Origin: Sporosarcina koreensis
Lineage (GTDB): Bacteria; Bacillota; Bacilli; Bacillales_A; Planococcaceae
DNA length: 64,000 nt
Assembly: GCF_000826145.2 (NCBI RefSeq)
Contig: NZ_LN651336.1
Coordinates: 2,501 to 66,500 of the forward strand
Direction of reading: 5' to 3'
In this document: positions 2,986 to 8,584 of the stretch, in pieces
How positions within the stretch are numbered: position 1 is the first letter of the stretch
Layout: each line of letters opens with the position of its first letter
Translations under genes and position numbers: made by a program
The notes under the pieces: generated by a model
Seen by the model: only the letters and a program-made list of their open reading frames with translations
Database searches by the model: none
Told to the model about the DNA's origin: nothing

Positions 2986-4230
2986 TTATGCCCATCCGCG
3001 GAAACGGGAGGCTTCCGCTGTTTTGCGGATTCCGATCATATAAGCTGCAAGACGCATGTCAATGCCGCGCGTAGTTGCCTGCGTGTAGACATTATCGAAG
3101 GCTGTGACCATTTTCTCGGTCATACGTTCACGCACGTCCTCTTCAGACCAGTAATAGCCCATGTTGTTCTGCACCCACTCGAAGTAGGAAACCGTTACGC
3201 CGCCAGCGCTTGCCAGCACGTCCGGAACGAGGAGGATACCGCGGTCCGTAAGAATCTTGGTCGCTTCGCTCGTTGTCGGTCCGTTCGCCGCTTCCACAAC
3301 GATATTCGCTTTGATGTTGTGTGCGTTGTGCTCCGTAATCTGGTTTTCGATCGCTGCCGGAACGAGGATATCGCAATCCAGCTCGAGCAGTTCTTCGTTC
3401 GTCAGTGTGTTTTCGAACAGCGTCGTGACTGTTCCGAAGCTGTCGCGGCGGTCAAGGAGATAGTCGATATCCAAACCGTCCGGATCATGCAATGCACCGT
3501 ATGCATCCGAGATACCGATGACTTTCGCACCTGCATCATGAAGGAACTTCGACAGGAAGCTTCCGGCGTTGCCGAATCCCTGGATGACGATCCGTGCACC
3601 TTTCATATCAATGCCACGGCGTTTCGCTGCTTCGTTGATGATGATTGTAACACCTTCAGCAGTCGCACGGTCACGGCCTTGTGATCCGCCGAGGACAATC
3701 GGTTTGCCTGTGATGAAGCCCGGAGAGTTGAACTCGTCGATCCGGCTGTATTCATCCATCATCCACGCCATGATCTGAGCGTTCGTGAAGACGTCCGGAG
3801 CAGGAATGTCTTTTGTCGGCCCCATCACTTGGGAAAGAGCGCGTACATAGCCGCGGCTCAGACGTTCCAGCTCACCCATCGACATTTCTCGCGGATCACA
3901 GACAACGCCGCCTTTACCTCCGCCATACGGGAGATCTACAATACCGGCTTTCAGCGTCATCCACATCGACAGCGCACGGACTTCGTCCAATGTCACGTCT
4001 GGGTGGAAGCGCACGCCGCCTTTTGTAGGGCCGACTGCATCGTTATGCTGGCCGCGGTATCCAGTGAATACTTTCACTTTCCCGTCGTCCATTTTGACCG
4101 GAATGCGGACTTCCGTCATGCGCATCGGTTCTTTCAGAAGATCATACATGCCTTCATCGTAGCCCAGCTTGTCAAGTGCCTCTTTGATAACAACTTGTGT
4201 AGATGTGAACAGATTCAGGTTTTCAGTCAT
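2986..4230 (-). CDS. gudB: NAD-specific glutamate dehydrogenase (RocG/GudB family)
   Basis: A 414-residue enzyme that deaminates glutamate to 2-oxoglutarate and ammonia. The N-terminal substrate domain carries VGPTKGGVRFHPDV and LPYGGGKGGVVCDP (catalytic lysine region, about residues 67-110), then PAPDVFTNAQIMAWMMDEY. The C-terminal Rossmann domain carries VIQGFGNAGSFLSKFL near 215. Its length matches RocG/GudB, and no insertion like the inactivating repeat in B. subtilis 168 gudB is evident. It is the last of three catabolic genes in the same direction (rocA, rocD, then this), which supports a role in using glutamate from arginine, ornithine and proline. rocG is an equally valid name. Confidence 0.95.
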   Translation of the reverse strand: MTENLNLFTSTQVVIKEALDKLGYDEGMYDLLKEPMRMTEVRIPVKMDDGKVKVFTGYRGQHNDAVGPTKGGVRFHPDVTLDEVRALSMWMTLKAGIVDLPYGGGKGGVVCDPREMSMGELERLSRGYVRALSQVMGPTKDIPAPDVFTNAQIMAWMMDEYSRIDEFNSPGFITGKPIVLGGSQGRDRATAEGVTIIINEAAKRRGIDMKGARIVIQGFGNAGSFLSKFLHDAGAKVIGISDAYGALHDPDGLDIDYLLDRRDSFGTVTTLFENTLTNEELLELDCDILVPAAIENQITEHNAHNIKANIVVEAANGPTTSEATKILTDRGILLVPDVLASAGGVTVSYFEWVQNNMGYYWSEEDVRERMTEKMVTAFDNVYTQATTRGIDMRLAAYMIGIRKTAEASRFRGWA

Positions 4231-4310: not shown

Positions 4311-5504
4311 TTAGTTCGCAAAGACACTTTTGATCTTCTCGATTGCCCAGTCCAAATCTTCTTTGCTGATCACTAAAGGCGGCGCAAAACGGATGACTGT
4401 ATCATGCGTTTCTTTGCAGAGCAGGCCAAGTTCTTTCAGTTTTTCACAATATGGCCGCGCTTCTTCTGTCAGCTCCATGCCGATGAAGAGACCGCGTCCG
4501 CGGACTTCTTTAATGACGTCGTTCTCGATCTTTGCGAGCTCGCTTTTGAAGTAGTTGCCGAGTTCTTCCGAGCGTTCAGCGAGTTTCTCATCCTGCAGGA
4601 CATCCAGGGATGCGATGGAAACTGCGCACGCCATCGGGTTTCCGCCGAATGTCGAACCGTGTGAACCAGGGTTGAACACTTCCAGGACTTCCTTATCTGC
4701 AACGACACAGGAAATCGGGAACACGCCGCCGCCCAATGCCTTGCCGAGGATATACATATCAGGATCTACATCTTCCCACTCACATGCAAACATTTTACCA
4801 GTACGGCAAAGACCCGCCTGGATTTCGTCTGCAATGAACAATACATTGTTCTCCTTGCAGAGTTCGCGCGCTTTTTTCAAATAGCCTGCAGGAGGGATGA
4901 GGATTCCTGCTTCCCCTTGAATCGGCTCGATGATGAAGGCAGCTGTATTTTTCGTGATCGCTTGTTCAAGTGCATCAATATCGCCATACGGCACAAGCTT
5001 GATGCCCGGCAGCATCGGACCGAACCCGCGCTTGTATTCAGGGTCGGATGAAAGGGAAACAGCACCCATCGTCCGGCCATGGAAGTTGCCTTCGCAGCCG
5101 ATGATCTCCGCTTTGTCCGCTTCAACGCCTTTGACATCATATGCCCAGCGGCGCGCTGCTTTGATCGCTGTTTCTACAGCTTCAGCTCCTGTGTTCATCG
5201 GAAGAGCCATTTCTTTGCCTGACAGTTCAGTCACTTTTTCATACCATGGGCCCAATTGGTCGCTGTGGAATGCACGGGAAGTAAGGGTTACTTTGTCTGC
5301 CTGGTCCTTCAGTGCCTGGATGATTTTCGGGTGACGGTGTCCTTGGTTCACTGCAGAGTACGCAGAAAGCATATCCATATATTTGTTACCTTCCGGATCC
5401 TTTACCCATACACCTTCGGCTTCAGAAATAACGATCGGCAGCGGATGATAGTTTGGTGCACCATACTTGTTTGTTTGTTCAATCACTTGTTGAGATACAG
5501 ACAT
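4311..5504 (-). CDS. rocD: Ornithine aminotransferase
   Basis: A 397-residue class III PLP aminotransferase that converts ornithine and 2-oxoglutarate to glutamate semialdehyde and glutamate. Seen motifs are [19 protein letters not shown] (about 103-121), [28 protein letters not shown] and the PLP-lysine segment [18 protein letters not shown] near 255. Closely related acetylornithine transaminases exist, but the adjacent rocA and glutamate dehydrogenase favour rocD. GAGGAGGGAT-type SD lies upstream of the ATG. It is separated from rocA by 80 bases that contain a stable hairpin. Confidence 0.95.
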
Positions 5505-5585: not shown

Positions 5586-7130
5586 TTAGAACATTTCCGA
5601 AGTTGTCTTGCCCTGCATGTGGAGCTGCAGGTAATCCGGGCCGCCTGCTTTCGAGTCAGTTCCGGACATGTTGAATCCGCCGAATGGCTGGTATCCAACA
5701 ATCGCGCCTGTGCAGCCGCGGTTGAAGTACAGGTTCCCGACATGGAAGTCTTCACGAGCCTGCTCCAAGTGTTCACGGTTCGTCGTGATGACTGCGCCTG
5801 TCAGGCCGTAGTCTGTGTCGTTCGCCATTTCGATAGCTTCTGTGAAGTCTTTCGCTTTCGCCAATGCGACGAACGGTCCGAATACTTCTTCTTTCATGAT
5901 ACGTGCATCAGGCTTGACGTCAGCGAATACTGTCGGTGCGATGAAGAACCCTTTTGAGTCGTCCCCTTCGCCGCCCGCGATGAGACGTCCTTCTTTTTTG
6001 CCGATTTCAACATAACCCATGATTTTATCGAAAGCATTTTTGTCGATAACAGGACCTGCGAAGTTCGACTGGTCCGCCGGATCTCCGTACGTCAATTCCT
6101 TCGTCAGTTCCTCGACACGGCCGACAACTGTGTCGTACACATCTTCATGGATGATGGCACGTGAGCAGGCCGAGCATTTCTGACCGCTGAAGCCAAACGC
6201 CGATTTGACGATGGACTGAGCAGCAAGTTCAAGATCCGCTTCGCTGTCCACGACAATTGTATCTTTACCGCCCATTTCAGCGATGACACGCTTCAGCCAG
6301 ATCTGCCCTTCGTTCACTTTCGAAGCGCGCTCGTAGATGCGTGTTCCGACTTCGCGCGATCCTGTGAAGGAGACGAACCGTGTACGCGGGTGGTCGACGA
6401 GGTAGTCGCCCACTTCAGCGCCTGAACCCGGCACGTAGTTTACAACACCTGCAGGCATTCCTGCTTCTTCGAGCACTTCCATGAACTTGTAGGCAACAAC
6501 CGGAGTTGTCGATGCAGGTTTCAGAAGAACTGTATTACCTGTCACGAGTGCTGCGACAGTTGTTCCGGCCATGATCGCGAATGCGAAGTTCCATGGGGAG
6601 ATGACAACGCCTACGCCGAGCGGAATGTAACCGAAACGGTTGAACTCGCCCGGACGGCTTTCTACAGGGATGCCGTCTTTCAGCGTAAGCATCTGGCGGC
6701 CGTAGTATTCCATGAAGTCGATTGCTTCAGCAGTGTCCGCGTCCGCTTCGTTCCAAGGCTTCCCTGCTTCTTTCGTCAGAAGAGCTGAGAATTCGTGCTT
6801 GCGGCGGCGTACGATTGCAGCTGCTTTGAACAGGATATCCGCACGCATCTGCGGATCTGTCTTTCTCCATGTGCTGAACGTTTCGTCAGCGATTTTCATC
6901 GCCTTTTCCGCGATGTCTTTGCTCGCTTTGGATACGCGGCCGATTGTTTCTTCTTTGTTGGCTGGATTGAATGACACTAGCTTGTCATCTGTCATGATAC
7001 GCTCTCCGCCTACAATCAGGGGATAATCTTTACCAAGGTAAGCTTCAACTGTTTTCAAGCCTTCCTCGAATGCTTTTTTATTTTCTTCCTTAGTGAAGTC
7101 TGTAAATGGTTCATGTTTGTAGGGAATCAT
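5586..7130 (-). CDS. rocA: 1-pyrroline-5-carboxylate (glutamate semialdehyde) dehydrogenase
   Basis: A 514-residue NAD-dependent aldehyde dehydrogenase of the RocA/PruA-2 group that oxidises glutamate-5-semialdehyde to glutamate. Visible are [19 protein letters not shown] (NAD site, about 170-190), [26 protein letters not shown] with the catalytic Glu, and [12 protein letters not shown] with the catalytic Cys near residue 320. The frame opens further upstream at 7220, but the ATG at 7130 has an excellent AAAGGAGGACT site and gives the family N-terminus [12 protein letters not shown], so I use it. It heads the rocA-rocD-gudB run and is divergent from the RocR-like regulator. Confidence 0.95.
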
Positions 7131-7264
7131 GATAGTCCTCCTTTGAATTAGCGCAAAAAAAGTTTGCACTCCGTTCGTGATTACATTTATAATAATGCAA
7201 GATATTATTGCGCATTGCAAGTATTATTGTTTAAAACAGAGAAAAAGTTGGGCGGTGTCAATGA
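7131..7264. promoter_or_regulatory. Divergent rocA / regulator control region with tandem direct repeats
   Basis: TGCAAGATATTATTG (7196-7210) is repeated as TGCAAGTATTATTG (7216-7229). Repeat starts are 20 bp apart, about two helical turns, as expected for two bound dimers on one face. The sequence between contains AATGC...GCATT dyads that loosely resemble the B. subtilis RocR upstream activating site (recalled as AATGCAAAA-N-TTTTGCATT), but spacing differs. I could not find a -24/-12 (GG-N10-GC) sigma-54 promoter ahead of rocA. Confidence 0.55.
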
Positions 7265-8584
7265 ATGAACAGTTTCGACGAATCACTCTTCCCTTTCTAT
7301 GAATTCGCTGTCCAGAATGCGGGAATCGGCATCCACGCTGTCAACAGTGATGGCCGGACGATAATCTACAATGACAAGATGAAAGAGATCGAAGGGCTGG
7401 AACTCGAGGATATCCGGGAGTTGTCCATCCTTGAACTGTTTAAATTCCGTCAGCAGCCGAGCACACTTATGGAAGTGCTGCAAAACGGAAAAGAACAGCT
7501 GAATATCAAACAGACGTACTGGAACCGCAATGAAACCGAAATCACGACCATCAATAACACCTATCCGATCGTCCAGGACGGACGGCTGATCGGCGCGATC
7601 GAATTGTCACATGACGTCACTGCACTCGAGAAGTTCGTCCTCCAGCCGCTGAAGAAGGACAGGGATCCCATCCTTCTCAACCATATCGTGGCTGAGTCGG
7701 AGTCCATGAAACGAATCATCGCGACGGCCAAGAAAGCGGTGCGCGCACGGCTCCCTGTTCTGCTCATAGGAGAAGCCGGCACTGGGAAAGACCTTGTCGC
7801 GCAAGGGATCCATCATGAGGTGCCTGATGAGGACTCATCGTTCTATACGCTATATTGCAATCGTTCGGATATGCAGGCCATCGAACGGCTGGCTGGAAAA
7901 TTGGCAGAAGACGCACCGTTCACGTTATTTTGTGAACGTATCGACTTTCTATCCATCAAGCTCCAGCGAAAATTGCTGGAAATCCTTGAAACCTCTGAAG
8001 CAGGGTCACGGCAGTTCATCGCAAGTATCGGGGAAGATCCCGTGGAACTCATCTCCTCAGGTGTACTACTGAAGGAACTCTATTACTTCTTTGCCTCTTT
8101 CACGATCCGCTTCCCTCCTTTGCGGGAACGGACGGAAGATATCCTGCCCTTCGTCAGGAGATATTTGGCCAGACGCAGAGAAAGCTTCGGGACGGTCTTG
8201 GAAGACATCACAGAGGATGTACAGGATCTGTTCCTGTCGTACTCCTGGCCGGGAAATATGCGCGAGCTCGAAGTGCTGCTCGATGAGGTCGCGTCACTCG
8301 CCTCGTCGGAGACGATTATATCAGTGGATATGCTGCCGCTCCATTTCAGGAACAAGAGCAATGCATTGGAAACCGGCACAGCCCTTGCCTCCCCATTCCA
8401 GCCGGCAGGCGGCAGTGATTTCCTGCCGCTCGACAAGTTCTTGCGGGAAGCGGAATCCTACTATATACAGCGGGCGCTTGCCATGCATGACGGAAATATC
8501 ACCCGCACAGCGAATGCCCTGTCGATGAGCCGGCAGAATCTGCAATACCGGCTGCGGAAAAACAAAAACGGAGGAGAGGCATGA
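7265..8584 (+). CDS. RocR-like PAS/AAA+/Fis-HTH regulator with degenerate ATPase core
   Basis: A 439-residue protein with the layout of the arginine-catabolism activator RocR: PAS sensor (about 10-120), AAA+ domain (about 140-365) and Fis-type helix-turn-helix (about 400-433). Walker A is intact (GEAGTGKD, 169-176) and WPGNMRELE is present at 328. However, the stretch that should hold the GAFTGA sigma-54 contact loop is missing. The Walker B position reads TLFCERID (220-227) instead of a GTLFLDEI-type motif, and the usual arginine-finger segment reads LLKELYYFF. It therefore may not remodel sigma-54 holoenzyme. It is divergent from rocA, the obvious target. GGCGGTG sits before the ATG. Confidence 0.85.
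   Translation: MNSFDESLFPFYEFAVQNAGIGIHAVNSDGRTIIYNDKMKEIEGLELEDIRELSILELFKFRQQPSTLMEVLQNGKEQLNIKQTYWNRNETEITTINNTYPIVQDGRLIGAIELSHDVTALEKFVLQPLKKDRDPILLNHIVAESESMKRIIATAKKAVRARLPVLLIGEAGTGKDLVAQGIHHEVPDEDSSFYTLYCNRSDMQAIERLAGKLAEDAPFTLFCERIDFLSIKLQRKLLEILETSEAGSRQFIASIGEDPVELISSGVLLKELYYFFASFTIRFPPLRERTEDILPFVRRYLARRRESFGTVLEDITEDVQDLFLSYSWPGNMRELEVLLDEVASLASSETIISVDMLPLHFRNKSNALETGTALASPFQPAGGSDFLPLDKFLREAESYYIQRALAMHDGNITRTANALSMSRQNLQYRLRKNKNGGEA

Follow-up and report, generated by a model that had tools for sequence, protein, structure and literature searches.

The regulator RocR of Bacillus subtilis and Bacillus thuringiensis, which combines PAS, AAA+ and helix-turn-helix (HTH) domains and is encoded beside roc genes, is the closest described system to the locus analysed here. 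RocR as known so far acts together with sigma-54 at promoters of the -24/-12 type, and RocR of B. thuringiensis contains the GAFTGA motif (PMC4348106; PMC4428206). The B. subtilis protein responds to citrulline and ornithine (PMC4348106). Former sigma-54 activators that lack an intact GAFTGA motif and act at sigma-70 promoters are already known, namely TyrR, DhaR, HupR and the NtrC proteins of Rhodobacter and Caulobacter (PMC3162934; PMC10274813). TyrR and DhaR of Escherichia coli are GAFTGA-defective and sigma-70 dependent, and VpsR and YplP are also listed as lacking the motif (PMC3162934). HupR and the NtrC proteins of Caulobacter and R. capsulatus, which act at sigma-70 promoters, are without GAFTGA through a deletion in loop 1 (PMC10274813; PMC3162934). 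The Walker A and Walker B residues remain required in Caulobacter NtrC, and R. capsulatus NtrC depends on ATP binding (PMC10274813).

The window, the whole 64,000-nucleotide stretch of Sporosarcina koreensis DNA that was analysed, encodes a protein that is best read as its group's RocR, a former sigma-54 enhancer-binding ATPase that has become a sigma-A regulator (Table 1). It has PAS, AAA+ and Fis-type HTH domains beside roc genes, 17-bp palindromes occur at its locus, and it belongs to a clade sister to the GAFTGA-bearing RocR proteins of Bacilli, which share the palindrome. In contrast to known RocR, it has neither GAFTGA nor a recognizable -24/-12 promoter, a comparison that was drawn with these GAFTGA-bearing relatives and not with B. 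subtilis RocR itself.

Table 1. Features of the roc region, in coordinates of the window
Feature	Position	Strand	Remarks
Glutamate dehydrogenase gene	2986..4230	-	best NCBIfam matches are glutamate dehydrogenases, below their cut-offs
rocD, ornithine aminotransferase	4311..5504	-	NCBIfam NF003145, 795.7 bits, above cut-off
rocA, L-glutamate gamma-semialdehyde (pyrroline-5-carboxylate) dehydrogenase	5586..7130	-	divergent from regulator; NCBIfam TIGR01237, 810.8 bits, above cut-off
Putative operator site 1, CGCAAAAAAAGTTTGCA	7152..7168	.	between predicted rocA start point and rocA ribosome site; overlaps possible regulator -35 (read from sequence)
Possible sigma-A promoter of regulator gene, TTGCAC-N18-TATAAT	7164..7193	+	overlaps divergent rocA promoter; read from sequence and alignment
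Predicted sigma-A-type rocA promoter, TTGCAA-N17-CATTAT	7192..7220	-	8/12 consensus matches
Putative operator site 2, TGCAAGATATTATTGCG	7196..7212	.	44 bp from site 1; in rocA -35/-10 spacer, overlaps -10 by 2 bp
RocR-derived regulator	7265..8584	+	439 aa; PAS, degenerate AAA+, lid, Fis-type HTH
Walker A GEAGTGKD, residues 169-176	7769..7792	+	intact; Lys in 79/85 distinct clade sequences
Former Walker B TLFCERID, residues 220-227	7922..7945	+	Asp replaced by Glu, catalytic Glu by Arg
Former arginine-finger segment LLKELYYFF, residues 268-276	8066..8092	+	two Arg replaced by L and F

A preliminary description of this DNA had assigned PAS, AAA+ and Fis HTH domains and an intact Walker A motif to the regulator. 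The motif is present as described, and the domains were confirmed with Pfam (PAS_9/PAS_4 at residues 20-121, PAS_4 above its own cut-off and PAS_9 0.2 bits below; Sigma54_activ_2 at 142-286; AAA_lid_14 at 287-369; HTH_8 at 392-432). The absence of GAFTGA and the degeneration of the Walker B and arginine-finger segments, also described there, were borne out by the sequence. GAFTGA occurs nowhere in the protein, and the altered residues are replaced throughout the clade. Among the features of a sigma-54 activator, Walker A is retained and GAFTGA, the Walker B Asp-Glu pair and the arginine fingers are missing. In an alignment with GAFTGA-bearing RocR relatives, loop 1 is shorter by about 15 residues (17 alignment columns), and the loop preceding sensor I is likewise shortened. 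A further clade-wide change, replacement of the sensor I Asn by Gly, was not named in the preliminary description.

The AAA+ fold of the sigma-54-activator type is predicted to be intact. An AlphaFold2 model of the regulator (mean pLDDT 79.6, pTM 0.53) retains the five-stranded AAA+ core and the lid, with a short helix (residues 203-213) at the former loop 1. Fold comparison with the whole model, which covered residues 133-366 only, aligned the AAA+ part with FleQ (Z 22.7, 226 aligned, 2.4 Å), NtrC1 (Z 22.1) and VpsR (Z 21.1, 220 aligned, 2.5 Å). VpsR resembles the window regulator in its AAA+ fold and in lacking GAFTGA; since Z is slightly higher for FleQ, the fold does not single out VpsR. 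Model and sequence together point to an enhancer-binding protein fold without GAFTGA, as in the GAFTGA-less regulators. The loop 1 deletion in a former sigma-54 activator is shared with HupR and with NtrC of Caulobacter and R. capsulatus; unlike these NtrC proteins, the window regulator has Walker B, sensor I and both arginine fingers replaced. The NCBIfam models of DhaR and TyrR match it far below their cut-offs. TyrR, DhaR, VpsR and YplP have targets and sensors other than those of the window regulator, and TyrR represses or activates depending on operator position.

The closest named relative is a Sporosarcina protein at locus L001 (85% identical). A contig scan found 50 public relatives, in Sporosarcina, Paenisporosarcina, Rummeliibacillus, Viridibacillus, Kurthia, Planococcus, Metasolibacillus and one Bacillus ndiopicus, and GAFTGA is present in 0/50. 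When 151 genomes of the window's family were searched, 150 gave a match to the regulator and 142 were found to carry a relative of group A, to which the window belongs, or group B (membership meaning a best E below 1e-90). Group B proteins are 39-45% identical and also GAFTGA-less. rocA is divergent from the regulator in 48 of the 50 public loci (exceptions L045 and L046). The same arrangement is seen in 18 of the 20 loci L060-L079, there being none at L068 and a dehydrogenase 34% identical to RocA at L071. Some of the loci L156-L175 are also among L001-L050. At L021 (6001-7307), on the complete chromosome of Sporosarcina thermotolerans, the regulator's reading frame shifts before its end.

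A maximum-likelihood tree was built from 73 chosen rows, 24 of them from group A, with the loop columns left out. The GAFTGA-less proteins form a single clade (support 94/84), sister to the GAFTGA-bearing RocR proteins (96/89), here called canonical, whose identity as RocR rests on roc synteny; this amounts to one change of state. Within the GAFTGA-less clade, the intermediates L101 and L102 branch first, then L100, then L105, and then groups A and B, here called derived. Long branches meet at L105, so the order of the intermediates is less sure than the single clade.

Regions at roc loci were compared for 16 of 20 canonical loci (L111, L113, L117 and L119 drop out, as the DNA examined has no divergent roc gene within 900 bp), 49 of group A, 19 of group B and two intermediates. 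No more than 17 distinct rocA regions are represented among the 19 of group B, since L049/L070 and L045/L068 appear to be the same places and the L071 neighbour resembles RocA only distantly. The palindrome YGCAA-N7-TTGCR, with no more than one mismatch, was found in 15/16 canonical, 49/49 group A, 19/19 group B and 2/2 intermediate regions, compared with 0.42, 0.35, 0.18 and 0.01 regions in shuffles, a comparison that is mildly overstated as the palindrome was counted on regions from which it was derived. Pairs of palindromes 41-45 bp apart occur in 6/16 canonical, 48/49 group A, 10/19 group B and 1/2 intermediate regions, and in 11/16, 48/49, 18/19 and 2/2 respectively when two mismatches are allowed. 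L036 is the sole group A region without a pair, and at the one-mismatch level nine of the group B regions show just one site. Intermediate L101 has a pair 43 bp apart.

At canonical loci, the palindromes lie upstream of the -24/-12 site. At derived loci, the sequence TTGANN-N17-CATWAT has one copy in its spacer, and the other copy is nearer rocA. This sequence was found within one mismatch in 61/68 derived regions (45/49 in group A, 16/19 in group B) against 2.8 in shuffles (1.81 and 0.97), a contrast that is overstated, more strongly than that for the palindrome, because the motif was derived from the regions on which it was counted. A conserved sigma-A-like promoter is thus predicted at rocA. 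A generic promoter scan of positions 7050-7300 gave two other sigma-70-like matches (shuffle mean 0.6), neither of which is the promoter proposed for rocA or for the regulator. The palindromes are probably bound by the regulator, as their co-occurrence with it suggests.

Repressors typically have sites placed as these are, one within a spacer of normal 17-bp length and another just past the predicted start; from this geometry the direction of control is inferred to be repression, and a ligand-relieved repressor is more likely than an activator. The preferred reading, held with somewhat better than even confidence, is that a pseudo-ATPase RocR acts at a sigma-A promoter as a ligand-relieved repressor of the roc genes and of its own gene. 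Dimers or higher oligomers of the regulator would bind both palindromes, about four turns apart, and would thereby block sigma-A polymerase at rocA-rocD-glutamate dehydrogenase from the spacer and from just downstream of the promoter. Autorepression would follow from the overlap of site 1 with the possible promoter of the regulator gene. A metabolite from the breakdown of arginine, ornithine or proline, once bound by the PAS domain, would release the regulator. In most members Walker A persists in the AAA+ core, which would serve as a nucleotide-binding or purely structural oligomerization part.

The regulator might instead be a sigma-54-independent pseudo-ATPase that directly activates the sigma-A promoter of rocA, bending DNA or contacting polymerase when its PAS domain is charged, much as R. 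capsulatus NtrC is an activator of sigma-70 promoters. This is a real but rather unlikely possibility, because one site occupies a spacer of ordinary length and the second is past the predicted start, and such placements usually block polymerase. In its favour, the rocA -10 sequence CATWAT is weak, as is often seen in activator-dependent promoters. Activators that bind within a spacer also exist (MerR type). A MerR-like reading of the rocA promoter with 20 bp between the -35 and TATTAT was considered and dropped, as group B keeps the 17-bp spacing and often does not have TATTAT. B. subtilis RocR itself is an activator (PMC4348106), and NtrC, HupR and TyrR work at sigma-70 promoters without GAFTGA (PMC3162934; PMC10274813).

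It is very improbable that the palindromes belong to another regulator and that the window protein acts elsewhere. Roc genes in Bacillus are also targets of other regulators, binding is deduced from co-occurrence, and L080, of group B, has no palindrome in the stretch scanned upstream of the longest regulator open reading frame. Against this, the palindrome is also found at canonical RocR loci, and two Kurthia genomes in which rocA is not adjacent keep one copy with one mismatch upstream of the regulator, a count made without a shuffle control. Moreover, four of the nine family genomes without a group A or B regulator gave rocA, and at these four neither the palindrome pair (0/4) nor a -24/-12 site (0/4) was found; one of them has a single one-mismatch palindrome 368 bp away. 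In the window's own genome, YGCAAN7TTGCR occurs at 14 places, against seven for the reversed control, and the only pair is that of the roc region (7152-7168 and 7196-7212). No clear further target was seen among the six of the other twelve places that were examined (L150-L155), and four of the matches (L150, L151, L152 and L154) fall within listed open reading frames.

Promoters of the -24/-12 type were scored with a matrix built from published B. thuringiensis sites (PMC4428206), leaving out the intermediates L100 and L101, which have no divergent roc gene in the DNA examined. Scores of at least 14 bits were obtained in 14/16 canonical regions compared with 0/49 in group A, 0/19 in group B and 0/2 intermediates, and scores of at least 10 bits in 16/16 canonical compared with 1/68 derived regions. 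At the window rocA, the best score was 2.4 bits and no site was convincing. Judged by sequence, the -24/-12 promoter is gone from the roc loci of the derived clade. RpoN was searched for as PF04963, and no match was found in the window's genome (93% complete). Of the 142 family genomes with a group A or B regulator, 73 have a strong RpoN match and 69 do not (strong meaning E below 1e-20, as in 80 family genomes). Twenty group A loci from RpoN-bearing genomes have GAFTGA in 0/20, a best -24/-12 score of 7.9 bits and a palindrome pair at 43-44 bp in 20/20. The switch thus does not depend on loss of rpoN, which was rejected as its cause.

The preliminary description had proposed that this clade switched roc control to sigma-70. 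That proposal is upheld as far as the loop and hydrolysis residues are lost, no convincing -24/-12 site is seen and a sigma-A-like rocA promoter appears conserved; rpoN loss does not explain the switch. Sigma-54 independence of the regulator is well supported. It is scarcely credible that the protein is still a sigma-54 activator through an unrecognised contact surface: a score of 14 bits is reached in 0/68 derived regions, the window's own genome gave no RpoN match, and the hydrolysis residues are absent in 85/85 sequences. In favour of such an activator stand an AAA+ fold predicted to be intact, the effect of Caulobacter NtrC mutants without GAFTGA on sigma-54 genes (PMC12421884) and weak -24/-12-like matches in three group B regions (L067, 10.7 bits; L073, 8.1 bits; L077, 9.1 bits; shuffle p 0.02, 0.025 and 0.045).

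Residues were compared in 109 distinct sequences, left from 116 after identical ones were removed, among them 20 canonical, 64 of group A (window included) and 21 of group B. The canonical proteins, which have GAFTGA in 20/20 by construction as they were picked for it, all retain the Lys of Walker A, the Asp and Glu of Walker B, the Asn of sensor I and the two arginine fingers (20/20). In groups A and B together, GAFTGA is present in 0/85, so that the deletion is clade-wide, a point that the preliminary description had asked to be checked. The Walker B Glu is replaced by Arg in 85/85 and the Walker B Asp is kept in 3/85; likewise, the sensor I Asn is replaced by Gly, and Arg is found at neither finger, in 85/85. 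The Walker A Lys is lost in six of the 21 group B sequences (L071, L072, L073, L077, L078 and L046). The replacing residues are themselves largely conserved, which indicates fixation of a new state rather than drift. Across 16 close pairs, dN/dS came to 0.02-0.07 for the AAA+ core, a rough value because many dS values were saturated (above 1), and up to 0.17 for the lid. At the level of sequence, the contact loop and hydrolysis residues have thus been lost throughout the clade under what appears to be strong purifying selection. A pseudogene or a sequencing error was rejected, as the same state is found at 50/50 public loci and AAA+ dN/dS is low. The idea that the AAA+ domain is a relic decaying under weak selection, to which the lost Walker A Lys in 6/21 group B proteins and the frame shift at L021 might be attributed, can be dismissed as next to negligible given the low dN/dS, the conserved replacements and the close relatives in 142/151 family genomes.

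Outgroups of A and B within the GAFTGA-less clade keep parts of the ATPase. L101 and L102, from another family, have lost the loop and have Ser for the sensor I Asn, with Walker B and fingers intact, and RpoN is present in 4/4 intermediate genomes. It is proposed, at what is judged an even chance, that an enhancer here became an operator. The sites would have been kept, about 44 bp apart as before, a sigma-A promoter would have come to sit between and under them, and the motor-driven activator would have turned into a sigma-A repressor whose pseudo-ATPase is conserved. The steps would be preserved in living outgroups, the loop and the sensor I Asn having gone first and Walker B and the fingers afterwards, with a BkdR-like activator losing GAFTGA in parallel. 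As a rule, when a regulator has crossed from ATP-driven sigma-54 control to sigma-70/A control, nothing but the end state is seen. In this case, one orthologous regulator beside the same genes displays the states before, between and after, together with the promoter change, the kept sites and genomes with and without RpoN, which makes the order of events testable. The label 'sigma-54-dependent regulator' would be wrong for the derived clade.

In the literature searched on GAFTGA together with RocR, only the B. thuringiensis activators were found, and those have the motif; in further searches, no title or opening of an abstract among the matches listed describes such a conversion of RocR. Points that are new within the literature searched are RocR's conversion and the intermediates that accompany it, the disappearance of all hydrolysis residues tested, and the new use of the palindrome on a sigma-A-like promoter.

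Canonical RocR is also found in the window's own family: the genomes G099, G106, G131 and G149 have it instead, beside rocD and close to rpoN. At L107 (genome G209), a GAFTGA-bearing RocR is accompanied by a -24/-12 site upstream of rocD, and no RpoN match was found in that genome. At L081-L084, in four family genomes, rocD, a GAFTGA-bearing RocR and rpoN lie within a few hundred bases of one another, like a portable set.

A second sigma-54-type regulator without GAFTGA, with an intact Walker B (TLFLDEI), is encoded on contig C4 of the window's genome (L051, 1060-3054). It adjoins a phosphate butyryltransferase gene, the neighbour from which its label 'BkdR-like' derives. It has a match in 72 family genomes; of 30 aligned proteins, its own included, four keep GAFTGA and 26 do not. 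The loss of the motif is graded across these 30 relatives and is seen in RpoN-bearing and RpoN-free genomes alike.
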